64,000 nt of DNA, from positions 62,001 to 126,000 of the forward strand of contig NZ_BMMH01000006.1 in assembly GCF_014645735.1 (NCBI RefSeq). Direction: 5' to 3'. The stretch comes from Nocardia jinanensis (GTDB lineage: Bacteria; Actinomycetota; Actinomycetes; Mycobacteriales; Mycobacteriaceae). Of the stretch, positions 11,453-61,100 are shown piece after piece (positions within the stretch are counted from its first letter, which is position 1; each line of letters begins with the position of its first letter). A program made the translations under genes and the position numbers. A model generated the notes under the pieces. It was not told the origin of the DNA. It saw only the letters and a program-made list of their open reading frames with translations, and searched no databases.

Positions 11453-11455
11453 TGT

Positions 11456-14894: not shown

Positions 14895-14899
14895 ACTCC

Positions 14900-15757: not shown

Positions 15758-15759
15758 CT

Positions 15760-16524: not shown

Positions 16525-16974
16525 TCCCGGACCTCCTCCGCACTGGCGCAATAATTAACCAGTGCGACAGTATGTGATTCCCACTACATTCACAACCCTC
16601 GATCCGAACCTCGGCGATCGGGCCAGAGCACCGCACACGCACGGTGAATGTGGCGCCTGCCTGCCAGATACCGGATCCCCGCCCAGGTTGTCTCGCGCAG
16701 CATCTCAGCAACACGATTGGCGTCGCAGCCCGGAAAACGGACGACCGACTCGACCTCGACTGCCGGGCAGGGACGCCGCTCAGGCTCTACGATTGGCCGC
16801 TGACCTGCTGATTCACACTAATTATTATTTAGTGAGTTAGTTTTTTGCCGTAGCATCGGATCGCCCGGCCCTTCACCATCGTTCGATAGCGTTCGCGACC
16901 GGAACCGGACGACGTGCGCCGGCCTGAAAGGTCTCGATCACGGCTGCTCCGAGCCGCGGGGCCGAGGTGGCGTG
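16525..16974. promoter_or_regulatory. 450-bp regulatory gap upstream of mce operon
   Basis: No convincing gene lies here. It holds two AT-rich islands in GC-rich DNA: ATAATTAACCAG at 16551-16562, a plausible minus-strand promoter element close to yrbEA, and an inverted repeat near 16816-16834. The region separates the mce operon from a TetR gene that reads towards it. Confidence 0.55.
16816..16834. promoter_or_regulatory. Inverted repeat CACTAA-n7-TTAGTG
   Basis: A 19-bp site, CACTAATTATTATTTAGTG, with perfect six-base arms around an AT-only centre, followed by AGTTAGTTTTTT. It is about 290 bases from the yrbEA start. It resembles a TetR-family operator and is the best candidate for control of the mce operon in this gap. 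Confidence 0.5.
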
Positions 16975-43079: not shown

Positions 43080-45380
43080 TCAGGACAGCCGGTCCAGTAC
43101 CGCGCCGGCGGCGCGGTCGCGCAGATTCTCCGGCCGGCCCAATGCCACCTGGTTGGCGGTGGCCCGGCGCAGCAGCAGATGCGCGGGATGTTCCCAGGTG
43201 AAACCGATACCGCCGTGGATCTGGATGCAGGACTCGGCCGCCGAGACCGCGGCGTCGAGCGCGGCGGCCGCGGCGATATCCGCGGACAGCTGCGCCTCGG
43301 GATGGTCCGGATCGAGTTGCGCCGCGGCCAGCACCTGTCCGCGCGAACCTTCCGCGCCGATCAGCATCCCCGCGCAACGATGCGAAATAGCCTGGTACGA
43401 GCCGATCAACCGGCCGAACTGCTCACGCTGGCCGGCCCAGTCGACGGCGAGCGCCAGGGCCCTGTTCGCGATACCGACCGACTCCGCCGCGAGCACCACC
43501 TGGGCCGTTCGCCGGGACGCGTCGAGGATCCGGGTCACCTCCGCGCCGCGGGCGATGACCTCCGGCTCGACCCCGTCCAGCACCACGACGCCGATGGTGC
43601 CGGTGAGGTCCACCGATTCCTGCGGCTCGACCTCGGCATACATGGTTTTCACCGTGCCCAGGACCAGCTCACCGGTGCCGGCGTCACGGGCGAGCAGCAC
43701 GAGCTGGTCGGCGACCGGCGCTCCCGGCACCCGCTCGACCGAACCGGACAGCCGGGATCCGTCCCACGTCGGCAGCGGGCCGTCGACGGCCCAGCCGTTG
43801 TCGTCCACCGGGACGACGAAAGCGGCGGTGGCACCGTCGCATACCGCCCGCACAGCCTCGGTGGCGCCGGCCTGACGCAGCACCTCGAGCGCGATCAGCG
43901 TCGGGACCAGGGGAACCGGCGCGACCGCGTAGCCGGCCTCTTCGACCGCGACCGCGAGCATCCGCGTCCCGGCACCACCGCCACCGAGGTCCTCCGGAAC
44001 CGCGAGGCCGGGGAGACCGAACTCGACCAGTTCGTCCCAGAGCCCGATATCGTAGTCGGCGGTCTTCGACGCCCAGGACAGGAGCTTTTCGGTGCTGGTA
44101 TGCGACGCCAGTGCCTTGCCGAGTACCTCGCGCAGCGCTGCCTCGTCCTCGTCCGGCCGGGTCAGCGGCCGGCCCGGCGCGACCGGCGCCGGACGGGTGC
44201 CCTCGCCGCGATGCGAGGGCAGGCCGAGTACCTGCTCAGCGATGGCGTTACGTTGGATCTCCGCGGTTCCGGCGCCGATGGTCGAGGCCCGGGTCATGAA
44301 GTAGCCGTAGGTCCAGCTGCCCCCGTCGACAGCACCTTTCGACCGGTTGCCCAGTGCGGCGCCCGTCCCGGTCAGCCGCTGCGCGAGCCGGTGCAGCTGC
44401 TGTTCGAATTCGGATTTGACCAGTCGGTTCACCGAGGCGACCCCACCGGGATCGGCCTTGCGCAGCACCGCGTCGAGTGCGCGCGCGCTGTTGGCGGCGA
44501 TAGCGCGCACACCGGTCTCGACGTGGGCGAGTTCCTGACGTACCAGGGCGTTGTCGGCGTACCCCTGTTTCTTCGCGAGGGCGAACACCTTGTCGACCAG
44601 GCCGCGATAGCGGAATTCGTCGGCGAGGAACGCGGTGGCGCGTTCGTGGCCCAGGGAGGTCCGCATGACCGACCAGCCTTTGCCCTCCTCGCCGACCAGG
44701 TTCTCCACCGGCACCACGACGTCGTCGAAGAAGATCTCGGCGAAATGGTGTCCGCCGGCGGCATCGCGGAGGGGGCGCACGTCGATACCGGGCGAGTTCA
44801 TCGGGATCAGCAGGTAGCTGATGCCGTCGGTGCCGCGGCCGGGTGGGCCGGTGCGCACCAGCGCGAACATCCAGTCTGCCTCGGCGGCCTGGGTGGTCCA
44901 GATCTTCTGGCCGGTGACGCGGTAGTTGTCGCCCTCGCGCACCGCTCTGGTGGACAGCGAGGCGAGGTCGCTGCCCGCGCCGGGTTCGGAGAAGCCCTGG
45001 CACCAGGCTTCCTCGGCCCGCAGCAGCGGCTCGAGGAAGCGCTTCTGCTGCGCGTCGGTGCCGTAGACGATCAGGGTGGGGGCGACGATGAAGGCGATCG
45101 AGTTCGGATGCTTCGGCACCCCGGCGGCGCTGGTCATCCGGTAGTAGTCGAGCTGATCCTCGAGCCCGAGCTCGAGCCCGCCGACCGATACCGGCCAGCC
45201 CGGGGCGGCCACCCCGGCATCGACCATCTCCGACTGCCACGCGCGCGCGGCGGCGGCGCGTTCCTCGGACGTCTTCGGCCGCGGACGCTTCGCGTAGGAG
45301 TCGAGCAACGCGGTCAGCCGCGCACGCCAGTCGCCCGTTTCGGTCGATCCCTCCAGCGGACCTGTCGTCGATCCAGCCAC
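43080..45380 (-). CDS. Two-domain acyl-CoA dehydrogenase, FadE34-like
   Basis: A 766-residue fusion of two acyl-CoA dehydrogenase domains. The first (about 1-385) has GFSEPGAGSDLASLSTRA, WTTQAAEADWMFALV and the loop TIGAGTAEIQRNAIAEQVLG. The second (about 415-766) has ESCIQIHGGIGFTWEHPAHL, the pattern of the non-catalytic partner subunit. In mycobacterial steroid side-chain oxidation such halves are separate (FadE28/FadE29) or fused (FadE34/ChsE3); this one is the fused form and should make a pseudo-heterotetramer. Branched or steroid-like acyl-CoA substrates are typical. The GTG at 45380 has GAGGAG upstream; it heads a six-gene operon. Confidence 0.9.
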   Translation of the reverse strand: MAGSTTGPLEGSTETGDWRARLTALLDSYAKRPRPKTSEERAAAARAWQSEMVDAGVAAPGWPVSVGGLELGLEDQLDYYRMTSAAGVPKHPNSIAFIVAPTLIVYGTDAQQKRFLEPLLRAEEAWCQGFSEPGAGSDLASLSTRAVREGDNYRVTGQKIWTTQAAEADWMFALVRTGPPGRGTDGISYLLIPMNSPGIDVRPLRDAAGGHHFAEIFFDDVVVPVENLVGEEGKGWSVMRTSLGHERATAFLADEFRYRGLVDKVFALAKKQGYADNALVRQELAHVETGVRAIAANSARALDAVLRKADPGGVASVNRLVKSEFEQQLHRLAQRLTGTGAALGNRSKGAVDGGSWTYGYFMTRASTIGAGTAEIQRNAIAEQVLGLPSHRGEGTRPAPVAPGRPLTRPDEDEAALREVLGKALASHTSTEKLLSWASKTADYDIGLWDELVEFGLPGLAVPEDLGGGGAGTRMLAVAVEEAGYAVAPVPLVPTLIALEVLRQAGATEAVRAVCDGATAAFVVPVDDNGWAVDGPLPTWDGSRLSGSVERVPGAPVADQLVLLARDAGTGELVLGTVKTMYAEVEPQESVDLTGTIGVVVLDGVEPEVIARGAEVTRILDASRRTAQVVLAAESVGIANRALALAVDWAGQREQFGRLIGSYQAISHRCAGMLIGAEGSRGQVLAAAQLDPDHPEAQLSADIAAAAALDAAVSAAESCIQIHGGIGFTWEHPAHLLLRRATANQVALGRPENLRDRAAGAVLDRLS

Positions 45381-45513: not shown

Positions 45514-45948
45514 TCAGGCCGCATCGGGCAGGAGCAGCTTGCGCGCTGCCGCCCGGTACTCCTCGCTCAGCGGGACAGCTCCGGACTCCCCCGCGACGGT
45601 GTGCACATCGACCGAGCGCGACACCGCGACCGGCTTGCCGTTCTGGAACAATCCGGCTCGATGCGCTATCGAAGTCCGGCCGATCCGGTGCACACCGATC
45701 CCGAGCCGAACCTCCCCCGGGTACGTCACTTCCGCCAAGTAGTCGATATCGACATGGGCCAGCAGCATCCGCAGCGGCGTGCCGGCGGGCAGCAGCCCCT
45801 CGATCATCCGGTTCAGGGTGACGCGACCCTCTTCGAAGAAACGCGCGATCGCGACGTTGTTCACGTGACCGATCCGGTCGATATCGGCGAATATCAGGCT
45901 GATCTCACGTTCGCAGGGGTATGCGTCGAAGGGCAGCGGCGGCCTCAT
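45514..45948 (-). CDS. 4HBT-type hotdog thioesterase
   Basis: A 144-residue acyl-CoA thioesterase of the 4-hydroxybenzoyl-CoA type. The active-site helix region reads FADIDRIGHVNNVAIARFFE, including the conserved Asp-x5-HVNN motif of this group. HVDIDYLAEVTYPGEVRLG follows. The ATG at 45948 overlaps the previous stop (ATGA). It releases CoA from an acyl-CoA, possibly as an overflow valve for trapped intermediates. It is last in a seven-gene unit. Confidence 0.88.
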   Translation of the reverse strand: MRPPLPFDAYPCEREISLIFADIDRIGHVNNVAIARFFEEGRVTLNRMIEGLLPAGTPLRMLLAHVDIDYLAEVTYPGEVRLGIGVHRIGRTSIAHRAGLFQNGKPVAVSRSVDVHTVAGESGAVPLSEEYRAAARKLLLPDAA

Positions 45949-46634
45949 GTGCCGGTACCCGGCCGACCGGACTCCCCGCGGGCGATGAACAGTCCCTGCG
46001 CCGACACTGTCACCTGCCCGTCGGCGACGATCTCGCCGATCGTGTACAACTTGCGGCCCTCCCGGCCGATTCGCCGCGCCCGTACGGTGAGCGCGACGTA
46101 CAGCGGCGTCGGCCTCCGATACGTCAGGTCGAGTTGCGCTGTCATACCGGCGGTCCCGGCCAGCTGGTTGGCCACGGCCAGCGCGCCGTCGAGCAGCAGG
46201 GCGCAGACACCGCCGTGCACCAGCGCCGGCGGGCCCTGATACGGAAGTCCCAGGGTGACAACACCTTCCGCCCAGCCGCCGCCCGCGTCCCGCATGGTCA
46301 GCGGTGGGGCGATCGGGTTCTCCGGACCGGTCGCGGGATCGTGTCGCGCGATCCCCTCGCCCTGCCACATCTCCGACAGCTGGGCGGGGACGGGCCGGGT
46401 GCGGCTCTCCAGCTGCTCGGCGATGCGCTGGAGTTCGGCGGCCGCGGCAGGTAGCCCGGCCTCGTCGGGCGCCGTACGGGCCAGCGCGTCCACGATCCGC
46501 CGGACCGCGGCCGCGGCGTCGTCGATCGGATCGTCGATCGGCGGTGCCGTAAGGCACGACTCACCGGGAGTCGCGCGGGACAGAACCTTGCGGCGAGTAG
46601 GCACGACCCAATCGATCGAGCGTGTGGTCTTCAC
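45945..46634 (-). CDS. PaaI-type hotdog thioesterase
   Basis: A 229-residue thioesterase with a ~100-residue helical N-terminal extension and a PaaI-type hotdog domain. PPALVHGGVCALLLDGALA is the central helix motif and QLDLTYRRPTPLYVALTVRA the following strand. The architecture is like that of the thioesterase at 18364. It starts at GTG 46634 with GGAGG upstream and overlaps the next thioesterase. Confidence 0.83.
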   Translation of the reverse strand: MKTTRSIDWVVPTRRKVLSRATPGESCLTAPPIDDPIDDAAAAVRRIVDALARTAPDEAGLPAAAAELQRIAEQLESRTRPVPAQLSEMWQGEGIARHDPATGPENPIAPPLTMRDAGGGWAEGVVTLGLPYQGPPALVHGGVCALLLDGALAVANQLAGTAGMTAQLDLTYRRPTPLYVALTVRARRIGREGRKLYTIGEIVADGQVTVSAQGLFIARGESGRPGTGT

Positions 46635-46673
46635 GGATCAACGCCTCCCGCGTTCTGTGAGTTACCGATCAGG

Positions 46674-47483
46674 TCAGCGGCGATCGCTGTAGGCCATTTC
46701 CTGTGCCAGGCTCGCCACGATCTCGCCGTGGCCGATGACCGTGCCCCGGTACCAGCCGCGTTTACCCGCCGAGACACCCCGCCCGTGGTCGACGAAGAGC
46801 CAATCGTCCCAGCGCGGCGTCCGGTGGAACCACAGCGCGTGATCGAGGCTCGGCCCGAGGACCTCGGTGCCGACCGTGCGGCGCAGTCCGGTGGAGAAAT
46901 CCGACATATAAGCGATGGCCGCGGCGTGCAGCAGCGGGTCATCGTGCGGTAGTTCGCAATTGGGGCGGACCCAGAATCTGGAGGGGAAGAACTTCTCTGG
47001 GCCCGACCAGTCCTCGACGCGGGCCAGTAGCGCCAGCTCGGGCTCCGAGGTCACGATCGGGCTTTGTTCCGGCGGGGCGAGCGGCACCACATCCGCCGTG
47101 GTGTGCTCCTCGCCCTCGGCGACCGTCCGGAACGACGCGGACATGTTGAAGATGACCTCGCCGTCCTGGAGTGCGACCACGCGGCGCGCCGAGTACGACC
47201 TGCCGTCCCGGTCGTTGTCGACACGGAAGACGACCGGTTGCGCGGCGTTGCCCCGCCGCAGGAAGTAACCGTGCAGTGAATGGGGCACACGGTCGGGCTC
47301 GACCGTTGCGCCGCAGGCCAGCAGGGCCTGCGCCAGTACCTGGCCGCCGTACAGCGCGCGATCGACCTCGAATCGGTGCACCGACCGGAACAGACCGCGA
47401 TCGAGACGATCCAGCGTCAGGATGTCCGTGAGCGGGACAGTCCGTAGTTCATCCGCGCGCCTGCCCGTGGCCAACTCAGTCAT
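46674..47483 (-). CDS. tesB: Acyl-CoA thioesterase II (TesB type)
   Basis: A 269-residue double-hotdog thioesterase. Family marks are YGGQVLAQALLACGATV and HSLHGYFLRRGNAAQPVVF in the first half, and MSDFSTG (catalytic Asp), SLDHALWFHR and SLAQEMAY (Gln) in the second. It hydrolyses medium to long acyl-CoA. The ATG at 47483 overlaps the crotonase stop by eight bases. It sits beside two other thioesterases of different subfamilies in the same unit. Confidence 0.92.
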   Translation of the reverse strand: MTELATGRRADELRTVPLTDILTLDRLDRGLFRSVHRFEVDRALYGGQVLAQALLACGATVEPDRVPHSLHGYFLRRGNAAQPVVFRVDNDRDGRSYSARRVVALQDGEVIFNMSASFRTVAEGEEHTTADVVPLAPPEQSPIVTSEPELALLARVEDWSGPEKFFPSRFWVRPNCELPHDDPLLHAAAIAYMSDFSTGLRRTVGTEVLGPSLDHALWFHRTPRWDDWLFVDHGRGVSAGKRGWYRGTVIGHGEIVASLAQEMAYSDRR

Positions 47484-48267
47484 CTCGGCTCGGCTTCGCC
47501 GCGCGCTTGCCGAAGCGGTCACCGATATCCTTGCCGTCGGGCCGCCAGGACGCCGAGGCCTCCGCCTCGAGGCCGAGGGCGTGGGCCACCGAGGCGCCGG
47601 CGCCTTCCTTCAGCAGGCGCAGCATTCGCTGCACCGCTACCGGATGCCCGGCCGCGATCGCCCCGGCGACGGCGAGAGTGCGTTCCATCAACTGCTCGTG
47701 CGGGACCACCTCGTTCGCCAGGCCGATGCGCAGCGCGGTGGCGGAGTCGATCGGTTCGCCGCTGAGGATGATCTGGGTCGCGGCGGGCAATCCCACGATG
47801 CGGGGCAGCATCGCGCTGCCACCCCAGCCGTTCAGCAGTCCGATCGAGGCGTGGGTGTCGGCGAATACGGCCTCCTCGGAGGCGATGATGAACGAGCAGT
47901 TCACCGCGAACTCGAACGCTCCGGTGTAGCAGGGCCCGTTGACCGCGGCGATCACCGGTTTGCCGATCGCGCGCAACGCCTGAGTAGGTGTGGTTCCCTC
48001 GGTACGCGGCGGCGGGCCGGTCAGCGCCTCGGGCAGGTCGACACCCGCGGAAAACGCGGTGCCCGCCCCGGTGATCACCACCACCCGGACATCCTCGTCC
48101 GCGTCGGCCTTCCACAGTTCCCGTTTGATCGCCTTGCGCATCGCCCGATTGATCGCATTACGCCGATCCGGCCGATTCAGCGTCAGGATCGCGACGTGGC
48201 CGTCACGAGTTACCAGGACCGGCTCGGCCTGGTCGTTGTCGTTGTCCGCACCCACGGGATTCCTCAC
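47476..48267 (-). CDS. Enoyl-CoA hydratase/isomerase (crotonase) family
   Basis: A 263-residue crotonase. GTAFSAGVDLPEAL and PCYTGAFEFAVNCSFIIAS give the oxyanion hole and first Glu; the second position is in FADTHASIGLLNGWGGS, with His in place of Glu. This THAxxG form is common in actinobacterial EchA proteins whose reactions are mostly unknown. The GTG at 48267 is the longest reading; a GTG four codons later (48255) has a better ribosome site, TGAGGAA. Confidence 0.83.
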   Translation of the reverse strand: MRNPVGADNDNDQAEPVLVTRDGHVAILTLNRPDRRNAINRAMRKAIKRELWKADADEDVRVVVITGAGTAFSAGVDLPEALTGPPPRTEGTTPTQALRAIGKPVIAAVNGPCYTGAFEFAVNCSFIIASEEAVFADTHASIGLLNGWGGSAMLPRIVGLPAATQIILSGEPIDSATALRIGLANEVVPHEQLMERTLAVAGAIAAGHPVAVQRMLRLLKEGAGASVAHALGLEAEASASWRPDGKDIGDRFGKRAAKPSRDD

Positions 48268-48271
48268 ATTC

Positions 48272-49123
48272 TCAGACGAATTCGACTACTGCTTCGGTGA
48301 ACGCGTCGTTGTCATCACCGGCGGCGGTATGACCCGCACCGTCCAGCTCGACGCACCGCGCGCTCGGCACGGCCGCCAGGAATTCTTCGACAGCGCCCCG
48401 GCTGACCACATCGGACAGCGCGCCGCGGACGACCAGAATCGGCACGCCCAGACCGGCCGCCACCGATTCGAGTTCCCGCGCCCACGTGTGCAGGTCCTGC
48501 TGCGCCTTCCGGAGGAACTGCGGGTCCCAATGCCACCGCCAGCGCCCGTCCGGACGCCGGCGCAGGTTGCGGCGCAAACCTTCCGCGCTCCGCGGACGTT
48601 TCCGGTGCGGCAGGTACGCCGCAATCGCGTCCGCGGCCTGCTCGAGACTGGTGAAGCCGTCCGGGTTGCCCTCCATGAAGGCCCTGATCCGGCTCCCGCC
48701 GCCCTCCTCGATTCGCGGAACCACATCGACCAGCACGAGTTTGCGGATCCGGGCGGCGCCGAGCTCGCCGGCGGCCTGGAGTCCGGTCAGTCCGCCGAGG
48801 CTCGCCCCGACGAGGGTGACCGGTTCCCCGATCTGATCCACCACCGCGCAGATATCCCGGGCGAGGGTGTCCATGCCGTACTCGGCGGCCGAGGACGCCC
48901 AGGCACTGTCCCCGTGACCGCGGGTATCGATCGCGAGGACACGCAGGCCCCGGGCCGCCAGGTGGGCACCCGTCCGCTTCCATGAATGCCGGGTCTGGCC
49001 GGTTCCGTGCAGTAACAGCACCACCGGATCGCCGGCCCGCCCCCAGCAGTCCCCTACCAGCCGCAGGCCGCCCGACCCGCGGAACTGCACGGGCCGGGCA
49101 GATTCGGTGGTGGTGCTGCTCAC
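48272..49123 (-). CDS. Alpha/beta hydrolase
   Basis: A hydrolase of about 283 residues. PVVLLLHGTGQTRHSWKR holds the oxyanion HG motif, VTLVGASLGGLTGLQAAG the nucleophile Ser, and LDGAGHTAAGDDNDAF the catalytic His. VLVDVVPRIEEGG follows the Ser region, as in the lipase/esterase and C-C hydrolase groups. The GTG at 49123 is preferred because AGGAG lies just upstream; a GTG at 49141 is the alternative. In this operon it may open a lactone or split a C-C bond (inference). Confidence 0.82.
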   Translation of the reverse strand: MSSTTTESARPVQFRGSGGLRLVGDCWGRAGDPVVLLLHGTGQTRHSWKRTGAHLAARGLRVLAIDTRGHGDSAWASSAAEYGMDTLARDICAVVDQIGEPVTLVGASLGGLTGLQAAGELGAARIRKLVLVDVVPRIEEGGGSRIRAFMEGNPDGFTSLEQAADAIAAYLPHRKRPRSAEGLRRNLRRRPDGRWRWHWDPQFLRKAQQDLHTWARELESVAAGLGVPILVVRGALSDVVSRGAVEEFLAAVPSARCVELDGAGHTAAGDDNDAFTEAVVEFV

Positions 49124-49143
49124 TGCGCTCCTGTCCGACACTG

Positions 49144-50935
<1,792 letters not shown>

Positions 50936-50992
50936 CCTGCCCACCTCTCGGCCGACTATTTCCAGCAACCTCGCCAGAATCTCACCTAGATA

Positions 50993-51319: not shown

Positions 51320-52564
51320 ATGGCCGATACGCATGCGAATTCGCCGACCGTCAAAACTCGGCTCGGCCGGCTCGGTCTGCTCGCACTGGTTCCCGCGATA
51401 GCACTCGCCACCGCCTGTGGCAGCGGCGGAGACTCCACGGGCACGGCCGCCGAGGCCCCGGACAGCGCCTTCCCCGACAAACCGGCGACCGGCAGCCCGA
51501 TCAAGATCGGGCTGATCAATCCCGAGGGCGGCCCGGCGATTTCCCAGCCGTCGAACCGCGAGGCCGCGGAGGCCGTCGTGGCATACACGAACGCGAACCT
51601 CGGCGGAATCGCCGGGCATCCCATCGAACTCGTCACCTGCGCGAGCAAGGAGGATCCCGCCTCGAACCGCGATTGCGCCAACCAGATGGTCGAGGCGAAA
51701 GTCTCCGCCGTCGTCGTCACCACCACCGCCTACGGCGACACCATGGTCCCGGTCATCACCGGAGCGGGCATTCCCTACGTCACCCCGTCCGCCGCGGCCG
51801 GTGCGGAAATGACCACGCCCAACGCCTTCAGCCTCACCGGCGGATTCCCGGGCACTCTGAAATCGATGGCGGCCTACGCGGCCGGTAAGGGATACAAGAA
51901 GGTGACCGCCTTCGTCACCGAGAACGGCGCCGCGGTCCCCACCGCGAAGCAGATGGGCGGGGCCGCCTTCGGCGCCGCGGGCATCGATCTGCGGGTCGTG
52001 CCCATTCCCCTGGGCACGCCCGACGCGACACCCCAGGTCAGCTCGGGGATTTCCGGGGATATCGGCGCTGTGGCCGTGGTAGGCGACGCGACGATGTGTA
52101 CCGCGGTGGTCAAATCGCTCGGCGCCCTCGGTGCGACCCAGGACAGAATGCTGATCCAGCCGTGCCTGGATCCCGCGACCATGGAGGCCATCGGCGACGC
52201 GATGGAAGGAGCCCATGTCTTCACCACCGCGGACCTGGTCTCCGACGATCCGGAGGCCGCGCTCTACCGCAGCGTGCTGAAAAGGTACGCACCCGACACC
52301 GACACCGCGGGCTACACCTACACCGGCTACCAGGGCATGCTCGGCCTCGTCCGCGCGGCGCAGGGCGTGACCGGCGACCCGACCGCCACGGCCGTCGCCA
52401 CCGCGATCACCACGGCCGACAAGGTGACCCTGCCCGCCGGGCACGGCATGACCTTCGCCTGCGACGGCACGGCGCTGGCACAGCTGCGCTCGATCTGTAG
52501 CACGCAACTGGTGACGGTCACCATCACCGACGGCGAACCCACCGATCCGCAGGTCACCGAATAG
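51320..52564 (+). CDS. livK: Liv-type ABC transporter substrate-binding lipoprotein
   Basis: A 414-residue periplasmic-binding-fold lipoprotein. The signal peptide ends in LATAC with the lipidated Cys at position 33, so it is held on the outer membrane face. The mature part begins with KIGLINPEGGPAISQPSNRE and follows the branched-chain amino acid/urea-binding family, with NANLGGIAGHPIELV and YVTPSAAAGAEM. In catabolic islands such proteins often bind aromatic or alicyclic acids instead of amino acids. The ATG follows GAGAAGGA. It is first in a three-gene transporter operon. Confidence 0.88.
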   Translation: MADTHANSPTVKTRLGRLGLLALVPAIALATACGSGGDSTGTAAEAPDSAFPDKPATGSPIKIGLINPEGGPAISQPSNREAAEAVVAYTNANLGGIAGHPIELVTCASKEDPASNRDCANQMVEAKVSAVVVTTTAYGDTMVPVITGAGIPYVTPSAAAGAEMTTPNAFSLTGGFPGTLKSMAAYAAGKGYKKVTAFVTENGAAVPTAKQMGGAAFGAAGIDLRVVPIPLGTPDATPQVSSGISGDIGAVAVVGDATMCTAVVKSLGALGATQDRMLIQPCLDPATMEAIGDAMEGAHVFTTADLVSDDPEAALYRSVLKRYAPDTDTAGYTYTGYQGMLGLVRAAQGVTGDPTATAVATAITTADKVTLPAGHGMTFACDGTALAQLRSICSTQLVTVTITDGEPTDPQVTE

Positions 52565-52609
52565 GCCGACGGGGATTCCACGACCTATTCGATCCCCGAG
52601 GAGCTTTCC

Positions 52610-55375
52610 GTGACCGATCATCTGGTCTTCCTGGCATTGGGACTGGGCAACGGGGCCGTGTACGCGGCCCTGGGCCTGGCCCTGGTGATGACGTTCCGAA
52701 GTTCGGGCGTCGTGAACTTCAGTACCGGCGCGGTCGCCCTGTACGTGGCATACACGTACGGGTTGCTGCGCAAAGGTGAACTACTCAACCCGATTCCGGG
52801 CATGCCGAAATCGATCGATCTCGGCGGGCGCCTCGGCCTGCTGCCGGCGATGGGCATTTCGCTCGCCATCGCCGCGCTGCTGGGAACGTTGATCTACGCG
52901 ATCGTCTTCCGGCCGTTACGCACCGCGCCACCGGTCGCGAAGGCGGTGGCGTCGATCGGCGTCATGCTCTTCGTACAGGCGCTCTTGGCGGTGCGGGTCG
53001 GCACCACACCGGTGTCGGTGAAAGCGATTCTGCCGTCCGGCGCCCTGTCCCTCGGCGATGCGCGCATCCCGGTGGACCGGCTGTGGTTCGCCGCGGTGAT
53101 CCTGGCACTCGCGGTGGCTCTCACCCTGTTGTATCGCTGGACCCGCTTCGGCCTGGCGACCCGCGCCGCCGCCGAATCGGAGAAGGGGGCCCTGGTCACC
53201 GGGCTCTCCCCCGAACGCATCGCTTTCGGTAACTGGGCGCTCAGCACGATGGTGGCCGGGCTGAGCGGGATCCTGATCGCACCGATCGTGCCGCTCATCC
53301 CGGTGTCCTACACGCTGTTCATCGTGCCGGCGCTCGCGGCCGCGCTGGTCGGCAACTTCACCGCGATGGGGCTCACGGTGATCGCCGGACTCGGTATCGG
53401 CATGGTGCAGTCGGAGATGACGCACCTGCAGAGCACCGTGAGCTGGTTCCCGCAATCCGGGATGGCCGAACTCGTCGGGCTGGTCATGATCCTCATCTTC
53501 CTGGTGATCCGCGGAAAGCCCCTGCCCACCCGGGGCGCGATCATCCAGCAGACCCTCGGCCGGGCGCCACGGCCGCGGAACCTGCTGGTCCCCGCCGTAC
53601 TTTCGGTGGTGGTCGCGGTGGCGGCGCTGCTGTGGACCTCGGGTAGCTACCGGGCCGCCGTGATCACCACCTTGATCCTCGCGGTGATCGCGCTATCGCA
53701 GGTGGTCGTCACCGGTTTCGCGGGTCAGATCTCGCTGGCCCAGCTCACGCTGGCCGGCGTCGGCGCGTTCACCCTGAGCCGCCTCACCGGCGACCTCGGT
53801 GTGCCGTTCCCCCTCGCACCGGTCCTCGCCGCCCTCGTCGCCACCGTGATCGGGGTGGTGGTAGGGCTGCCGGCGCTGCGGATCCGTGGCCTGCCGGTCA
53901 CCGTGGTGACTCTGGCGCTGGCCGTTTTCCTCGAGACCTTCTGGTTCCGTAACAGCAACCTCAACGGTGGACTGGCCGGGGCGCATATCGAGAACCCGCG
54001 CCTGTTCGGCATCGACCTCGGTATCGGGGCCGGCGAGACGTATCCCCGGGTACCGTTCGGGCTCGTCTGCCTGGCTGTCCTGGTGCTGGTTGCGTTGTCC
54101 GTCGCCGCGCTGCGCACCAGCCGTCTCGGTGCCTCGATGCTGGCGGTCCGCGCCAACGAGCGTTCGGCCGCCGCGGCCGGAATCGACGTGGCCCGCACGA
54201 AGATCAAGGCCTTCGCCATCGGTGCGTTCATCGCCGGCCTGGGCGGTGCGCTGATGGGCTACCAGCAAACGGTCGCGACGGCCGAATCGTATTCGACAAT
54301 CGCCGGAATCGGGCTGTTCGCCATCGTGTACATCGCCGGGATCACGTGCGTGTCCGGCGGTATCCTCGCCGGCGTGATCGGGGCCGGTGGCGTCATGTTC
54401 ATCGTGATGGACCGATTCCTGCACCTCGGCGACTACTACGCGCTGATCTCCGGCGTCTTCCTGGTGCTGACGGTCATCAAGTACCCCGAGGGGCTCATCG
54501 GGCACCTGCACGAGCACACGGCACGAATCCGTGCCCTGCTCGGCCGGTTTCGCCCGCCCCGGCCCGGCCCGCCCGTTCCGGCGCCGCCCGCAGCCGAAAT
54601 CGGGGCGCCGGAGCCGCGGGAGCTGCCCGCCGAGATCCTGTTGTCGGCCGACGGGGTCGGCGTGCGCTACGGCGGCGTCGTGGCGCTCGACGATATCGGC
54701 TTCGAGGTCCGCTCCGGCGAGATCCTCGGGTTGATCGGACCCAACGGGGCGGGCAAGACGACGTGTATCGACGCTCTCAGCGGGTTCGCGCCCGCGTCGG
54801 GGACGGTCACCCTGGGCGACCGGCGGATCGACGGTCTCGAACCGCACAAACGCAGCCGGCTCGGCCTCGGCCGGACCTTCCAGGGCATCGAACTGTACGA
54901 CGATTTGACGGTGCGCGAGAACGTCGCCGTCGGGGTCGTGGCGGCGACACACCGTCCCGACGGCGCCGCGCCCTCGACCGCCGAGATCGACCGCCTGTTC
55001 GGCATGCTGCACCTCGACGAGGTGGCCGATCGTTCGGTCAACGAGCTGTCCCAGGGCCGGCGTCAACTGGTCTCGGTGGCCCGTGCACTCGCCGGACGCC
55101 CCCGGATCGTCCTGCTCGACGAGCCTGCCGCAGGCCTCGACAGCACCGAAAGCCGCTGGCTCGGCGAGCGTTTGCAAGCCGTCCGGGATGCGGGAGTGAC
55201 CGTCCTGATGGTCGATCACGATATGGAACTCGTGCTCGAGATCTGCGACCGGATCGTCGTCCTCGACCTCGGGCGGGTCATCGCGGCGGGCACGCCCGCG
55301 GAGATCCAGTCGAATCCCGAAGTGGTGCGTGCCTATCTCGGCACCACCCATACAGCCACGGAGGTGTCCGCATGA
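52610..55375 (+). CDS. Fused LivH-LivM-LivG ABC importer subunit
   Basis: A 921-residue protein joining three transporter parts. Residues about 1-300 are a LivH permease (LALGLGNGAVYAALGLALVM; SGVVNFSTGAVALYVAY). Residues about 330-640 are a LivM permease (GFAGQISLAQLTLAGVGAF; ALRIRGLPVTVVTLALAVF; RANERSAAAAGIDVARTKIK). After a Pro-rich linker, residues about 675-910 are a LivG ATPase: Walker A GPNGAGKTT (710), signature NELSQGRRQL (near 809), Walker B RIVLLDEPAAGLD (near 832) and H-loop MVDHDM. All three are intact, with no frameshift at the joins. The GTG at 52610 has GAGGAG upstream. Confidence 0.92.
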   Translation: MTDHLVFLALGLGNGAVYAALGLALVMTFRSSGVVNFSTGAVALYVAYTYGLLRKGELLNPIPGMPKSIDLGGRLGLLPAMGISLAIAALLGTLIYAIVFRPLRTAPPVAKAVASIGVMLFVQALLAVRVGTTPVSVKAILPSGALSLGDARIPVDRLWFAAVILALAVALTLLYRWTRFGLATRAAAESEKGALVTGLSPERIAFGNWALSTMVAGLSGILIAPIVPLIPVSYTLFIVPALAAALVGNFTAMGLTVIAGLGIGMVQSEMTHLQSTVSWFPQSGMAELVGLVMILIFLVIRGKPLPTRGAIIQQTLGRAPRPRNLLVPAVLSVVVAVAALLWTSGSYRAAVITTLILAVIALSQVVVTGFAGQISLAQLTLAGVGAFTLSRLTGDLGVPFPLAPVLAALVATVIGVVVGLPALRIRGLPVTVVTLALAVFLETFWFRNSNLNGGLAGAHIENPRLFGIDLGIGAGETYPRVPFGLVCLAVLVLVALSVAALRTSRLGASMLAVRANERSAAAAGIDVARTKIKAFAIGAFIAGLGGALMGYQQTVATAESYSTIAGIGLFAIVYIAGITCVSGGILAGVIGAGGVMFIVMDRFLHLGDYYALISGVFLVLTVIKYPEGLIGHLHEHTARIRALLGRFRPPRPGPPVPAPPAAEIGAPEPRELPAEILLSADGVGVRYGGVVALDDIGFEVRSGEILGLIGPNGAGKTTCIDALSGFAPASGTVTLGDRRIDGLEPHKRSRLGLGRTFQGIELYDDLTVRENVAVGVVAATHRPDGAAPSTAEIDRLFGMLHLDEVADRSVNELSQGRRQLVSVARALAGRPRIVLLDEPAAGLDSTESRWLGERLQAVRDAGVTVLMVDHDMELVLEICDRIVVLDLGRVIAAGTPAEIQSNPEVVRAYLGTTHTATEVSA

Positions 55376-56097
55376 CCGCGGTTCTCGAATGCGCCGGGGT
55401 CGACGCCGGCTATTTCGCGGGGCGCCCGTGTGTGCGCGGTTTCGATCTGGTGCTGGAGCAGGGGGAGGTCCTCGCCCTGCTCGGGCCCAACGGCGCGGGC
55501 AAGACCACCCTGCTGATGACCCTCGCCGGGCTGCTGCCCAGCATCGGGGGCGCGATCAGCATCGCCGGCACCGCGATCGGACCCGGCCGCGCGCGGGCAT
55601 CCTCCAGGGCCGGGCTGGTCCTGGTGCCGGACGACCGTGCGCTGTTCACCGGCCTCACCGTGCGGGAGAATCTCGAACTCGCACGCCACCGTTCGGGGCC
55701 GGCTGTTGCCGACATCATCGCGTACTTCCCGCCGCTCGGTGAACGGATCAAAGTCTGCGCGGGCATGCTGTCCGGCGGTGAGCAGCAGATGCTCGCGATC
55801 GGCCGGGCGCTGATGCAGAATCCGAAGGTACTGCTGATCGATGAGCTGAGCATGGGTCTGGCGCCGGTGATCGTCGAATCGCTGCTTCCGGTGATCCGCC
55901 GGGTCGCCGACGACAAGGGCACGGCGGTGATTCTCGTCGAGCAGCACGTACGGCTCGCCCTCGGAATCGCCGATACGGCCATAGTGCTCGCGCACGGGCA
56001 CGACGTGTTGCGTGGCAGTGCGGCGGAACTCGCGGCGGCACCGGAAAAGATCGAGCGCGCCTATCTCGGCACCGCGGAGGCGAAAATCGGAACCTGA
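55372..56097 (+). CDS. livF: Liv-type ABC transporter ATPase LivF
   Basis: A 241-residue ATPase, the second motor subunit of the importer. Walker A is LLGPNGAGKTTLLM near residue 38, the signature MLSGGEQQMLAIGRAL near 130, Walker B VLLIDELSMGLAP near 152 and the switch His in VEQHVRLALG. It overlaps the fused gene by ATGA, so the two are made together and should pair as the LivG/LivF dimer. A 19-bp hairpin begins at its stop codon. Confidence 0.93.
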   Translation: MTAVLECAGVDAGYFAGRPCVRGFDLVLEQGEVLALLGPNGAGKTTLLMTLAGLLPSIGGAISIAGTAIGPGRARASSRAGLVLVPDDRALFTGLTVRENLELARHRSGPAVADIIAYFPPLGERIKVCAGMLSGGEQQMLAIGRALMQNPKVLLIDELSMGLAPVIVESLLPVIRRVADDKGTAVILVEQHVRLALGIADTAIVLAHGHDVLRGSAAELAAAPEKIERAYLGTAEAKIGT

Positions 56098-56312: not shown

Positions 56313-57113
56313 CTACCGCGACTTCCACACGGGGGCGCGCTTTTCGGCGAAGGCCAGCGGGCCTTCCTTCGCGTCCTCGCTGTTCATCAGGTCCTGCCAC
56401 TCGGCCTCCGAATGACCCCACCTGTCGTTCTCGCCGGGACGGTCGCCCGCCTGGATACCGAGCGCGATCCGCTTGCTGGCCTGCACCGACAGCGGAGCGT
56501 TGACCGCGATCCGCTCGGCCAGCGCCAGCGCCGCCTCGACCACAGCGCCGTCCGACACCACCTGGTTGATCAGACCGTACTCATGCGCGGTGGTCGCCGA
56601 GATCGGGTCTCCGGTGAGGATCATCTCCATGGCCAGACGCTGCGGGATCTGCGCCGGCAACCGGAACACCCCGCCCGCGCCGGCGAGCAACCCGCGCTTG
56701 ACCTCGGGCAGCCCGAAGCTCGCGCCTTTCGCCGCGACGATGAGATCGGCGGCAAGGGCGAGTTCGGTGCCGCCGCCCAGCGCCGTGCCGTTGACGGCGG
56801 CGATGGTCGGTTTGCTGATGACGTGCCGGACGAATCCGGCGAAACCCCAGTGCTCGTTGCCGGGTGCGAACAGCCCCTCGCCGCGCGAGATCGCCTTGAG
56901 GTCCGCACCGGCGCAGAAGGATTTGTCGCCGGCACCGGTGATCACGACCACGCGAATCTCCGGGTCGTTCTCCGCCTGGACCAATGCGGCGCCGACGGCC
57001 GCGCTCACCGCGGCGTTCACCGCGTTGCGGGCCTCGGGACGGTTGATGGTGATCAGCAGGACATTGCCCTTGCGCTCGACCAGAGCGCCGACCTCGGTTG
57101 CCGCCGTCATCAC
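56313..57113 (-). CDS. Enoyl-CoA hydratase/isomerase (crotonase) family
   Basis: A 266-residue crotonase with both hydratase Glu residues: ALGGGTELALAADLIVA and SFGLPEVKRGLLAGAGG. The C-terminal FAEKRAPVWKSR resembles that of the crotonase at 41676. It starts at 57113, overlapping the thiolase stop (ATGA), and is last in a ligase-dehydrogenase-thiolase-crotonase operon, a nearly complete beta-oxidation set. Confidence 0.9.
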   Translation of the reverse strand: MMTAATEVGALVERKGNVLLITINRPEARNAVNAAVSAAVGAALVQAENDPEIRVVVITGAGDKSFCAGADLKAISRGEGLFAPGNEHWGFAGFVRHVISKPTIAAVNGTALGGGTELALAADLIVAAKGASFGLPEVKRGLLAGAGGVFRLPAQIPQRLAMEMILTGDPISATTAHEYGLINQVVSDGAVVEAALALAERIAVNAPLSVQASKRIALGIQAGDRPGENDRWGHSEAEWQDLMNSEDAKEGPLAFAEKRAPVWKSR

Positions 57114-58255
57114 TTCACCAGCTCGAGGATCGTCGCATTGGCCTGGCCGCCGCCCTCACACATGGTCTGCAGACCGTAGCGAATGTCGTTGCGGCGCATA
57201 TGGAAGACCAGGTCGGTCAGAATCCGGGCACCGGAACCACCGAGGGGGTGGCCCAAGGCGATGGCGCCGCCGTTGGGGTTCAACTTCTCGTCCGGCGCGC
57301 CGATCTCCTTCTGCCACGCCATCGGTACCGGTGCGAAGGCCTCGTTGACCTCGAACACACCGATATCGTCGACCGATAGGCCCGACTTCTGCAATGCCTT
57401 CTCGGTCGCGGGGATGGGAGCACTGAGCATCATCACCGGGTCGGCGCCCGCGACGACCGCGGTGTGCACGCGCGCGATCGGCGTCAACCCGTGCTTCTGC
57501 GCGAACTCGTCGCTGACGATCAGCAGTGCCGCCGCCCCATCGGAGATCTGCGAGGAGTTGCCGGCGTGGATGACGCCATCCTCTTTGAAGACGGTCTTCA
57601 GGCCGGCCAGCTTCTCGACGGTGGTGCCGCGGCGGATACCTTCGTCCTTGGTGACGACCGTCCCGTCGGGCAGGGTGACGGGCACGATCTGCGCGTCGAA
57701 CAGACCGGCGTCCTGCGCGGCCGCGGCGCGTTCGTGCGAGCGCGCGGAGAACGCGTCCACGTCGGTGCGCGACAGTGCCCACTTCTCGGCCATCATCTCG
57801 GCGCCGACGCCCTGATTGGGTGAAGCGTTGTAGCGCTCCATGAACTTCGGGCTGAGCGGGCTGCTGCCATCGGTCAGCGCGGCACCCATCGGAACCCGCG
57901 ACATCGACTCGACACCGCCGGCCACGACCGCTTCGTAGTGCCCGGCGAGCACACTGGCGACCGCGAAGTTCAGCGACTGCTGCGACGATCCGCACTGACG
58001 GTCCACGGTCACACCCGGCACCGATTCCGGCCAGCCCGCCGCGAGCACCGCATTGCGCGCGATGTCATGGGTCTGCTCCCCGACCTGCCCGACGCAGCCC
58101 CAGATGACATCTTCGATCAACTCGGGCTCGATACCTGCCCGCTTCACCAGTTCCTGCAGCACCACGGCCGACAGATCGACGGGATGGATCCCGGACAGCC
58201 CACCGTTACGTTTCCCGACGGGGGTACGCACGGCCTCGACAATTACTGCACCCAT
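57110..58255 (-). CDS. Acetyl-CoA acyltransferase (thiolase)
   Basis: A 381-residue degradative thiolase that cleaves 3-ketoacyl-CoA with CoA. The nucleophile is Cys88 in VDRQCGSSQQ. The C-terminal motifs are NEAFAPV, GGAIALGHPLGGSGARI (His) and MCEGGGQANA (second Cys). The length matches FadA-type enzymes. AAAGGAAA lies before the ATG. It is third in its operon and supplies the chain-cleavage step after dehydrogenation and hydration. Confidence 0.93.
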   Translation of the reverse strand: MGAVIVEAVRTPVGKRNGGLSGIHPVDLSAVVLQELVKRAGIEPELIEDVIWGCVGQVGEQTHDIARNAVLAAGWPESVPGVTVDRQCGSSQQSLNFAVASVLAGHYEAVVAGGVESMSRVPMGAALTDGSSPLSPKFMERYNASPNQGVGAEMMAEKWALSRTDVDAFSARSHERAAAAQDAGLFDAQIVPVTLPDGTVVTKDEGIRRGTTVEKLAGLKTVFKEDGVIHAGNSSQISDGAAALLIVSDEFAQKHGLTPIARVHTAVVAGADPVMMLSAPIPATEKALQKSGLSVDDIGVFEVNEAFAPVPMAWQKEIGAPDEKLNPNGGAIALGHPLGGSGARILTDLVFHMRRNDIRYGLQTMCEGGGQANATILELVK

Positions 58256-58268
58256 GAGGGTTTCCTTT

Positions 58269-59417
58269 CTACAGTCCGAGCGAGCGCCCGATGATTTCCT
58301 TCATGATCTGGGTCGAACCGCCATAGATGGTCTGGATCCGCGCATCCGCGTAGGCCTTGGCGATCGGATACTCCATCATGAAGCCGTAACCACCGTGCAT
58401 CTGCTGGCAGGTATAGATCAGTCGTTGCTGCAGTTCGGTGGTCCACCACTTGGCCTTGGCCGCGTCGGTGCCGTCGAGGGTGCCCGCGTTCAGCTCCGTG
58501 ATGCACCGGTCGACGTAGACCTGCGCGAGATCGACCTCCGTCTCGAGCGTCGCCAGCTCGAACTTGTTGGCTTGGAAGGAACCGATCGGCGTACCGAATG
58601 CCTTGCGGGACTTGACGTATTCGAGGGTCGCGTCCAGCAGCGTCCGGCAGGAGGCGACGGCCGAGACCGCGATGGACAGCCGTTCCATCGGCAGGTTGCG
58701 CATCAGGTGCAGGAAACCCTTGCCGACTTCACCGACCACATTCGCGGACGGAACCCGCACCTCGTCGAAGGTGAGTTCCGCGGTGTCCTGGGAATGCAAA
58801 CCGAGTTTCTCGAGGTTGCGGCCGCGGGTGAACCCCGCCATATCGCGCTCGACGGCCAGCAAAGTGAACGCCCCGCTCGCCTTGGCATCCGGGTCGGTGC
58901 GGGCGACCACGATGACGAGGTCGGCATGGATCCCGGACGAGATGAAGGTCTTCGACCCCGACAGCACCCAATGGTCGCCGTCTTTGCGCGCGGACGTGCG
59001 GATCCCCTGCAGATCGCTGCCCGCGCCCGGTTCGGTCATCGCCACCGCGACGACCAGTTCGCCGGCCGCGAAAGCCGGCAGCCAGCGGGCCTTCTGCTCG
59101 GCGTTGGTGAGCTCGAGCATGTACGGCGCGAGCACATCGTTCTGCAGGGTGAAGGCCGGCCCACCGGAGGAAGCCCGGGTCACTTCCTCGGCGACGATGG
59201 CGTTGTAGCGGAAATCGCCCGACATCCCGCCCCCGCCGAACTCCTCCGGAACCGAGAAACCGATCACCCCGAACTTGGCGGCATCGACGTAGAGCTGCTT
59301 GTCGATGATCCCGTCCTTCTCCCATTGCTCCTGGTGCGGGGTGGCGTACCGGGCCAGGAACTCGCGCACAGTCGCGCGGTACTGGTCGTGTTCGGTATCG
59401 AAGATTTCGCGTTTCAT
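58269..59417 (-). CDS. Acyl-CoA dehydrogenase
   Basis: A 382-residue FAD enzyme that introduces the 2,3-double bond in acyl-CoA. It has AMTEPGAGSDLQGIRTSA, WVLSGSKTFISSGIHADLV and MHGGYGFMMEYPIAKAYADA, then IQTIYGGSTQIMKEI at the C-terminus. This is the single-subunit homotetramer type close to long-chain FadE enzymes, in contrast to the split pair at 61139 and 63341. It lies 13 bases before the thiolase gene in the same operon. Confidence 0.92.
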   Translation of the reverse strand: MKREIFDTEHDQYRATVREFLARYATPHQEQWEKDGIIDKQLYVDAAKFGVIGFSVPEEFGGGGMSGDFRYNAIVAEEVTRASSGGPAFTLQNDVLAPYMLELTNAEQKARWLPAFAAGELVVAVAMTEPGAGSDLQGIRTSARKDGDHWVLSGSKTFISSGIHADLVIVVARTDPDAKASGAFTLLAVERDMAGFTRGRNLEKLGLHSQDTAELTFDEVRVPSANVVGEVGKGFLHLMRNLPMERLSIAVSAVASCRTLLDATLEYVKSRKAFGTPIGSFQANKFELATLETEVDLAQVYVDRCITELNAGTLDGTDAAKAKWWTTELQQRLIYTCQQMHGGYGFMMEYPIAKAYADARIQTIYGGSTQIMKEIIGRSLGL

Positions 59418-59424
59418 CCCTTGC

Positions 59425-60969
59425 CTACCTTCCCGACGCCACTGCCGCGGCCGGATCGGATTCCTCTATCTCCGCGACTATTTCGAGAAGCCGCCGCCGG
59501 TCCACTTTCAGCGACGCGCTTCTCGGCAACTCGGGTACCGTGTAGATCCGCACCGGGACCTCGTAGGCGGTGAGCTGATGGCGGCAGAACGCCTTCAGCT
59601 CGTCCTCGGAAACCTCCGCGGTGCCGTCGACCAGTTCGACGGCGGCGACAGGCACCTTCCCGAGCCGCTCGTCCTCGCGGCCGTACACCGTGGCATCCAG
59701 GATGGCGTCGTGGGCGCGCAGCGCTTCCGCGACCGTCTCGGGCTGAATCTTGAAGCCACCCCGGATGATCGCGTCGTCGGCGCGGCCGTCGATGTAGACG
59801 AAGCCGTCCTCGTCGAGGTGGCCGATATCCGAGGTGCGGACCCAGTCGCCCGTGCCGGTGCCGGTCTGGCTCGAACTGACCTCGAGGCGCCCGGACTGCC
59901 CGACGGGCAGGATCGTGCCGTCCTCGGCGACCGCTCGCAGGCGGACGCCGGGCATTTCCCGACCGACGCTGCCGCGCTTCTTGGTCCACCACTCGGCATG
60001 CATGGGCTTGGTCCACCCGGCGATCGCCCCGGAGAATTCGGTGGCGCCGTACATGACCAGCACCGGGATGCCGTATTTCGCGGTGAACTCGTCGGCGAGA
60101 TCCGGGTTGACGAAGGTTGTGCCCGCGGTGATGGCCCGCAGGCTGGCCAGATCAGCGGCGGGGACATCGGCGCTGAGCACCGCGCGCATACCCGCGGGCG
60201 GCAGGCCGGCGACCTTGGGCTGGTGTTCTTTCACCGCCGCGCACCAGCCCTCCACGGTGAAGCGCGGAAGCATCACGAAGGGCCGGGCCTCGGCGAGGTT
60301 CTGCAGCACTCCCCACAAACCGCCGATATGCACGATCGGCAGGGTGACCAGCGCGACCCGTCCCGTCAGCAGTTTGCGGTCGGCCGGACCGGCCGCACCG
60401 GTATGGCCGTGCACCGCGGAGAGCGCGGCCTCGAGCTGACGCCAGGTGAGCGGAATCCGCTTGGGTGGGCCGGTGGTCCCCGAGGTGAACATCTCGATGC
60501 CGACCGGATCCGCGATCTCCGCACCGGTCTCCGGCGTCCCGGCCACACTCGCCTCGGTGGTCGCGATCACTTCGGTGTCGTCGACGGCGAATCCGATCAT
60601 GCCGGCGCTTTCGGCCACCGACCGGAACTCCGGCTCATTCCACGTGGCGGCGGGCGCCAGGACGGCGCGCGGGCGGGCATCGGCCATATCGGCACTCAGC
60701 CGCGCCACCGGTTGCATGGGGTTGAGGGTGATGACGGTGCGCCCCTTGCCGAGGATGGCGATGAGGGCGGCGATCGACTCCATCCGGTTGCCGAGCACGA
60801 CACCGACTCTGCTGCCCGCCCCGCAGCCGGCGCCGGCCAGGGCGGCATCCAGGCTCTCCGCAAGCGCCCGGACTTCCCCCCAGGTGAACCAGGTGTCACC
60901 TTGCTGGATCATGGCGGCGTCGTCGTCGGCCTCCCATAGCCGCGCCAGCGCGCCCCTGATGCTCGTCAT
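59425..60969 (-). CDS. AMP-forming acyl-CoA synthetase
   Basis: A 514-residue ligase. The ATP loop is EMFTSGTTGPPKRIPLTW (near 160-177), followed by VLVMYGATEFSGAIAGW, WVRTSDIGHLDEDGF and a C-terminal LPRSASLKVDRRRLLE. The last keeps the catalytic Lys although the usual Gly before it is Leu. It is first in the ligase-dehydrogenase-thiolase-crotonase operon and shares a promoter gap with the divergent dehydrogenase at 61139. Confidence 0.9.
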   Translation of the reverse strand: MTSIRGALARLWEADDDAAMIQQGDTWFTWGEVRALAESLDAALAGAGCGAGSRVGVVLGNRMESIAALIAILGKGRTVITLNPMQPVARLSADMADARPRAVLAPAATWNEPEFRSVAESAGMIGFAVDDTEVIATTEASVAGTPETGAEIADPVGIEMFTSGTTGPPKRIPLTWRQLEAALSAVHGHTGAAGPADRKLLTGRVALVTLPIVHIGGLWGVLQNLAEARPFVMLPRFTVEGWCAAVKEHQPKVAGLPPAGMRAVLSADVPAADLASLRAITAGTTFVNPDLADEFTAKYGIPVLVMYGATEFSGAIAGWTKPMHAEWWTKKRGSVGREMPGVRLRAVAEDGTILPVGQSGRLEVSSSQTGTGTGDWVRTSDIGHLDEDGFVYIDGRADDAIIRGGFKIQPETVAEALRAHDAILDATVYGREDERLGKVPVAAVELVDGTAEVSEDELKAFCRHQLTAYEVPVRIYTVPELPRSASLKVDRRRLLEIVAEIEESDPAAAVASGR

Positions 60970-61100
60970 TCGTTTCCTCCCACTCTTGCGGTAGCGGGCC
61001 ACCGCGCCGGGACGCCGCACTTTCGGCACCCGACCGTGTCGATCGCCGTGATCACATAGCCCGGTATTCCGGGTGTCGTATGCTCTATTCAGAAGATAGC

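Follow-up and report, generated by a model that had tools for sequence, protein, structure and literature searches.

We examined a window of 64,000 nucleotides, the whole stretch of DNA analyzed here, from the 8.0-Mb draft genome (70 contigs) of Nocardia jinanensis. On its plus strand, a single frame of 921 codons runs from a GTG start to a TGA stop without an internal stop, and a GAGGAG motif (52598-52603) is located six bases ahead of the GTG. A Pfam scan of the encoded protein identified PF02653 in two stretches, one LivH-like and one LivM-like, together with PF00005 and PF12399. The LivH, LivM and LivG domains (here H, M and G) are hence carried in one open frame and LivF (F) is encoded separately, which is the arrangement of the actinobacterial H-M-G fusion. 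The ATPase domain contains what we take to be Walker A (residues 710-717), the signature (813-819) and Walker B with E838, as well as Q758 and H870. In an alignment of the window protein with 53 relatives picked as full-length fusions, G710, K716, Q758, D837, E838 and H870 were invariant in all 54 sequences. The initial annotation had described a 921-residue LivH-LivM-LivG fusion with intact ATPase motifs, followed by a separate LivF with an ATGA overlap, and the single frame, the Pfam domains, the stop-free relatives, the invariant residues and the sequence at the overlap all agree with this description. The features of the locus are summarized in Table 1.

Table 1. The fusion gene, its domains and the neighbouring genes in the window.
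Feature	Position	Strand	Evidence
Substrate-binding protein gene, LivK/LivJ type	51320..52564	+	PF13458 Peripla_BP_6, E 1.2e-40
H-M-G fusion, two permease domains and one ATPase domain, 921 aa	52610..55375	+	Frame, Pfam
Domain H, residues 1-301, LivH-like permease	52610..53512	+	Domain models, helix ends in predicted structure
H-M joint, residues 302-325	53513..53584	+	Low confidence at 308-311; 4 residues between domain envelopes
Domain M, residues 326-646, LivM-like permease	53585..54547	+	PF02653 best stretch 351-621; domain models, structure
Proline-rich M-G linker, residues 647-675	54548..54634	+	Low structure confidence at 660-669
Domain G, residues 676-912, LivG-like ATPase with BCA_ABC_TP_C tail	54635..55345	+	PF00005, PF12399; PDB LptB, MJ1267
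Separate LivF-like ATPase, ATGA overlap with fusion gene	55372..56097	+	PF00005, sequence
Thioesterases, enoyl-CoA hydratases, alpha/beta hydrolase, nitronate monooxygenase-family gene	45945..50968	-	Pfam, NCBIfam, tblastn
Enoyl-CoA hydratase, thiolase, acyl-CoA dehydrogenase, AMP-binding CoA ligase	56313..60984	-	Pfam, NCBIfam; kept in close relatives

The gene for the binding protein lies directly upstream of the fusion gene on the same strand, and the N-terminus of its product contains ...LATACGS, which appears lipoprotein-like by eye. Of 22 loci, 20 have a relative of this gene upstream of the fusion, L016 and L018 being the exceptions. Among the flanking genes, the name given to 50141-50968 is based solely on its own sequence and on relatives in the compared loci, and the start of the AMP-binding CoA ligase was chosen manually, the listed frame extending further upstream.

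The coding signal continues through the whole fusion gene. Third-codon-position GC ranges from 0.80 to 0.93 per 60-codon step up to residue 900, unbroken across the joins, and is 0.67 in the final 21 codons. A scan of public genome contigs returned 21 loci, one covering the ATPase only and 20 spanning the whole protein, the latter assigned to Nocardia, Rhodococcus, Gordonia, Williamsia, Trebonia, a Streptosporangiaceae MAG and one labelled Kitasatospora. The single frame is kept and the joins are open in 19 of these 20 full-length loci. The lone exception, L025, has a frameshift within the first permease domain and not at a join; its interpretation as a natural split into H and M-G was ruled out because the frameshift sits inside H. 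The possibility of a missed stop at the joins, raised in the initial annotation, is answered by the window sequence, which has no stop there, and by the open joins of the relatives. An assembly or sequencing artefact joining separate genes could be imagined in a draft genome, but no support for it was found, and the same joins occur stop-free in 19 loci and in single-contig genomes (e.g., G110, G062, G1032 and G1086), leaving such an artefact a negligible chance. Judged from these sequences, a chance or assembly joining of the parts appears excluded in practice.

The predicted model of the whole fusion has a mean pLDDT of 90.6 and a pTM of 0.92, with confidence below 50 solely at residues 308-311, 660-669 and the last nine residues; the permease half modelled alone reached a pLDDT of 94.1. 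In structural comparisons, the predicted H-M half matched HmuU (Z 14.9, rmsd 5.1, 261 aligned residues) and BtuC (Z 13.8), and the best match outside the ABC permeases had Z 5.1. FhuB was matched across both domains (Z 12.1, 491 residues, rmsd 6.2) and was the sole Foldseek match below 0.001 (E 1.6e-4); the likeness is distant, since TM-scores are about 0.5 and, for Z values under 13 (here 12.1), the tool cautions that the similarity of helical proteins may amount to a common arrangement only. FhuB is a natural fusion of two permease halves, in agreement with its 630 residues. It belongs to the E. coli ferrichrome importer FhuCDB (PDB 7lb8), is 15% identical to the H-M half and, unlike the window protein, has no ATPase domain in the chain. 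A fold search with the whole model gave only ATPase chains among the matches listed and was uninformative on the permeases, and the G domain matches the PDB structures of LptB and the LivG homologue MJ1267.

These features place the system among the HAAT or Liv-type importers. It has two BPD_transp_2 (PF02653) permease domains, a LivG-type ATPase with a BCA_ABC_TP_C tail, a second ATPase of the LivF type and a Peripla_BP_6-type binding protein, and its permeases show the type II importer fold in a predicted model as opposed to a solved structure. The same domain set is present in E. coli LivKHMGF, the reference in our domain models, where livH, livM, livG and livF are four separate genes in another setting, whereas H, M and G are fused in the window. 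WP_081559128.1 from Rhodococcus sp. BH4, located on a 704-kb linear plasmid, is 80% identical to the window protein over the whole length and has H, M and G in one frame (L082); the same binding protein, LivF and acyl-CoA neighbours are found at this locus, and no essential difference was seen.

The initial annotation had considered a complete H-M-G fusion uncommon and had named a database search for the domain order as the means of refuting this. The search showed the architecture to be common, at least in Actinomycetota, and the claimed rarity fails there. Counting the source genome each time, at least 36 of the 118 genomes sampled from the genus carry a stop-free full fusion, as do at least 54 of 251 from the family (in 11 genera), at least 20 of 200 from the order and at least 14 of 296 from the phylum. 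The samples overlap, and these are minimum numbers, since no more than a few candidates were scored in each genome and E limits of either 1e-60 or 1e-80 were applied. Matches were counted as full-length with a query start of 30 or below, an end of 890 or above and no stop; ATPase-only rows were left out, and matches of full length that contained a stop were excluded (one in the genus, three in the phylum, one in the order and two in the G601 sample). The source genome itself carries a second full H-M-G fusion (G000:C6:10408-13083), which is stop-free, has LivF beside it, is 35% identical to that of the window and falls in a different clade. In a plasmid collection, three records matched: the first, with WP_081559128.1, carries the product name "branched-chain amino acid ABC transporter permease/ATP-binding protein", another is without annotation, and the third lists permease and ATP-binding protein apart. 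The genome counts and the RefSeq product name thus show that the H-M-G form is common in Actinomycetota and already named. No stop-free full fusion was found in 299 genomes around the Rhodospirillaceae MAG genome G601, presumably Pseudomonadota, where 38 genomes matched at E 1e-60, nearly all over M-G alone, and two matches extended from H through G, interrupted by one in-frame stop. The form is therefore rarer or absent in this presumably proteobacterial sample compared with Actinomycetota, and outside Actinomycetota "uncommon" may be a fair description.

Two labels among the public loci are doubtful: L022, labelled Kitasatospora arboriphila, has the same length, coordinates and identity as the Williamsia muralis loci L020 and L021, and the L018 record is flagged UNVERIFIED_CONTAM. 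In the titles, abstract openings and passages covered from the open-licence literature, the H-M-G fusion is described nowhere. The "fused permease" in the passages of PMC7550540, PMC7350417 and PMC2991359 refers to siderophore transporters, and those of PMC4810484 and PMC13188901 contain no description of an H-M-G fusion.

The H-M-G fusion is real, conserved and functional-looking, and as a widely shared, already-known arrangement in Actinomycetota it is largely ordinary. What looked striking is a standard actinobacterial form of a common importer, and the result is mostly a correction; interest remains chiefly in how often fusions have been reshuffled within the Liv family. Among 150 loci, frames of the orders H-M-G (89), H-M (24), M-G (20, the frameshifted L025 included), H-M-F (one) and M-G-F (one) were found, as well as unfused genes; these proportions are no census, as the loci were picked by similarity to the window protein and some are copies of one place. 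G and F were assigned by H, M, G and F domain models built here and seeded with window and E. coli sequences. The H-M-F frame (L108, G074:C164) has 900 residues, with the LivG-like ATPase encoded by a separate adjacent gene, and mirrors the arrangement in the window in that LivF is fused and LivG is free. The LivM-LivG-LivF frame (L142, G302:C24) has 879 residues, with both ATPases in one chain and LivH separate.

For the tree of 114 transporters, L003, L004, L005, L008, L029 and L066 were removed by hand, and 30 of the remaining 144 were dropped as at least 80% identical to a kept row. The H-M-G label requires eight changes on this tree, six of them forced by supported branches, and this is unchanged without L025. 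On a 60-row tree (51 rows from the 114-row tree and nine outgroup rows) inferred with a mixture model, six changes are required, five of them forced, and a single clade of the 37 fusions is rejected (p-AU 8.1e-6). H-M-G fusions have thus come or gone repeatedly. The window clade consists of 11 fusions (support 100) and is nested in a clade mostly of H-M fusions, which comprises 34 rows in the 114-row tree (100), 32 in the 60-row tree (100) and 33 in the tree without L025 (99). Because the sister of this mixed group contains H-M-G fusions exclusively (20 rows in the 114-row tree, 19 in the 60-row tree), gain and loss of G are not separable: G may have been gained by an H-M fusion in the window lineage, or it may have been lost by the surrounding H-M fusions. 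For the same reason, we withdrew a reading that favoured the addition of G to an H-M fusion.

Between the domain envelopes, the H-M joint has four residues in 10 of the 11 window-clade fusions and two in the other, and ranges from 0 to 62 residues over 62 fusions. The M-G linker has 27-107 residues in the window clade and 9-133 over the 62 fusions, with no visible sequence conservation; such freedom in both respects would be expected of a tether. An H-M-G fusion at L138 (G229:C1) has about 133 extra residues between M and G, hydrophobic-rich by eye. With the H-M-G fusion, actinobacteria have recurrently cut the four membrane and ATPase subunits down to two proteins. We suggest only tentatively that Liv-type subunit fusion in Actinomycetota evolved recurrently and was perhaps selected, with H-M, permease-ATPase, H-M-G and the rare H-M-F and M-G-F orders arising several times. 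If so, natural fusions could settle which ATPase serves which permease in this asymmetric transporter. The repeated changes of fused order and the free M-G linker provide natural constructs for studying how two dissimilar ATPases pair with two dissimilar permeases.

The setting among acyl-CoA genes noted in the initial annotation was confirmed by Pfam, NCBIfam and tblastn. At a threshold of E 1e-15 over half of the query, the transporter is accompanied, as in the window, by the nitronate monooxygenase-family gene and by all or part of the acyl-CoA neighbours in 11 of 22 loci (Rhodococcus sp. BH4, nine Nocardia loci and one record labelled Williamsia faeni). The other 11, including RHA1 pRHL1 and both Gordonia loci, do not have the same neighbours, which means that the substrate may differ or that the link to the neighbours is loose; at L024, the dehydrogenase, the thiolase and the ligase still have distant relatives. 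G1093, which is taken as RHA1, has two H-M-G systems, one on a pRHL1-like contig and one on a smaller contig, and a thiolase and a hydratase of this kind (59% and 48%, respectively) are located near the second RHA1 fusion. Around the transporter on the BH4 plasmid, thioesterases, hydratases, thiolases, acyl-CoA dehydrogenases and CoA ligases are annotated, as well as a cytochrome P450 and mycofactocin-coupled dehydrogenases; in the window, a P450 and CoA ligases likewise occur, together with an mce operon. Among the matches listed for 20 neighbours, only general NCBIfam models were passed, namely crotonase PRK08252, thiolase TIGR01930, the F420 family TIGR03617 and dehydrogenase PRK07231. A PDB search with the binding protein gave one weak match (E 1.3e-5), and its ligand can therefore not be read from a relative.

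Given the conserved acyl-CoA neighbours, the uptake of an organic acid suggested in the initial annotation is plausible; the substrate may be a carboxylic acid, perhaps branched or alicyclic, that would be activated to a CoA ester. A true leucine/isoleucine/valine importer that merely lies beside acyl-CoA genes would agree with the nearest family models (LivG and UrtD for the G domain, UrtE and LivF for LivF), with the branched-chain amino acid name used by RefSeq and with the lack of acyl-CoA neighbours in half of the loci. We nevertheless regard this as unlikely, since the NCBIfam equivalog scores are far under the curated cut-offs (195.7 vs 362 for LivG in the G domain, 150.8 vs 441 for LivF), the binding protein scores 20.3 vs 477 for the LivK/J model, and the transporter lies within a beta-oxidation cluster in close relatives. 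An importer of steroid or bile-acid intermediates comparable to the cam transporter of RHA1 was considered because the thioesterase at 45945-46634 passes the Pfam model RHA1_ro05818_N; it also matches PDB 2ov9 (E 4.4e-57) and is 51% identical to a place in G1093. Both PDB 2ov9 and this place are presumably ro05818, which we take to lie in the RHA1 cholate cluster, and the double acyl-CoA dehydrogenase and the mce operon in the window would fit as well. However, a Liv-type domain was not found (E 1e-4, closed frames of at least 180 aa) in the 50 kb around the ro05818-like gene (C1:6216000-6266000 of G1093), which argues against a cam system of the Liv type at this place. With scores of 140, 209 and 247, the three CoA ligases scanned stay below the 750 required by the steroid-24-oyl-CoA synthetase model, and none of the steroid models among the matches listed was passed, making an importer of this kind distinctly improbable; with no Liv-type domain around the ro05818-like gene, the link to cam and cholate is not supported. 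Passages of PMC8399759 and PMC12882949 describe the RHA1 cam transporter as one of cholate intermediates.

The fusion is best regarded as the likely core subunit of an ordinary Liv-type (HAAT) ATP-driven importer, one that would probably take up a carboxylic acid for CoA activation and beta-oxidation. We infer the assembly of the complex and the class of the substrate, and the direction would be import given the binding protein and the fold. The binding protein would catch a small, probably carboxylic acid substrate outside the cell and dock on the H-M permease pair, which would be driven by an ATPase pair formed by the G domain on its flexible cytoplasmic linker and the separate LivF; the adjacent ligase would then make the CoA ester of the substrate, followed by beta-oxidation. 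It is a fair inference in the initial annotation that the fusion would fix the ratio and order of H, M and G, with LivF and the binding protein staying free. Binding-protein-dependent ABC uptake of an acid is known from a related genus in the phthalate importer PatDABC of R. jostii RHA1, which, compared by its description in passages of PMC3983516, differs in having separate subunits (ATPase PatA, permeases PatB and PatC, and binding protein PatD); its substrates are treated in passages of PMC10973024. The conserved acyl-CoA cluster is a target for finding the acid taken up by Nocardia and Rhodococcus.

The frame at 43080-45380 encodes two acyl-CoA dehydrogenase units in 766 residues, and relatives of it were found near the transporter in L009, L014, L015 and L018 as well as on the BH4 plasmid, where it is annotated as acyl-CoA dehydrogenase. 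Among the scanned proteins of the mce-type lipid import operon at 7615-16551 are two permeases of the MlaE type and four MlaD proteins that include Mce4_CUP1 parts. A Rhodococcus plasmid island (NZ_CP014942.1:205000-300000; L082, L161 and L162) resembles much of the window by annotation, with a P450, mycofactocin-coupled dehydrogenases, CoA ligases, acyl-CoA dehydrogenases and two further ABC transporters.
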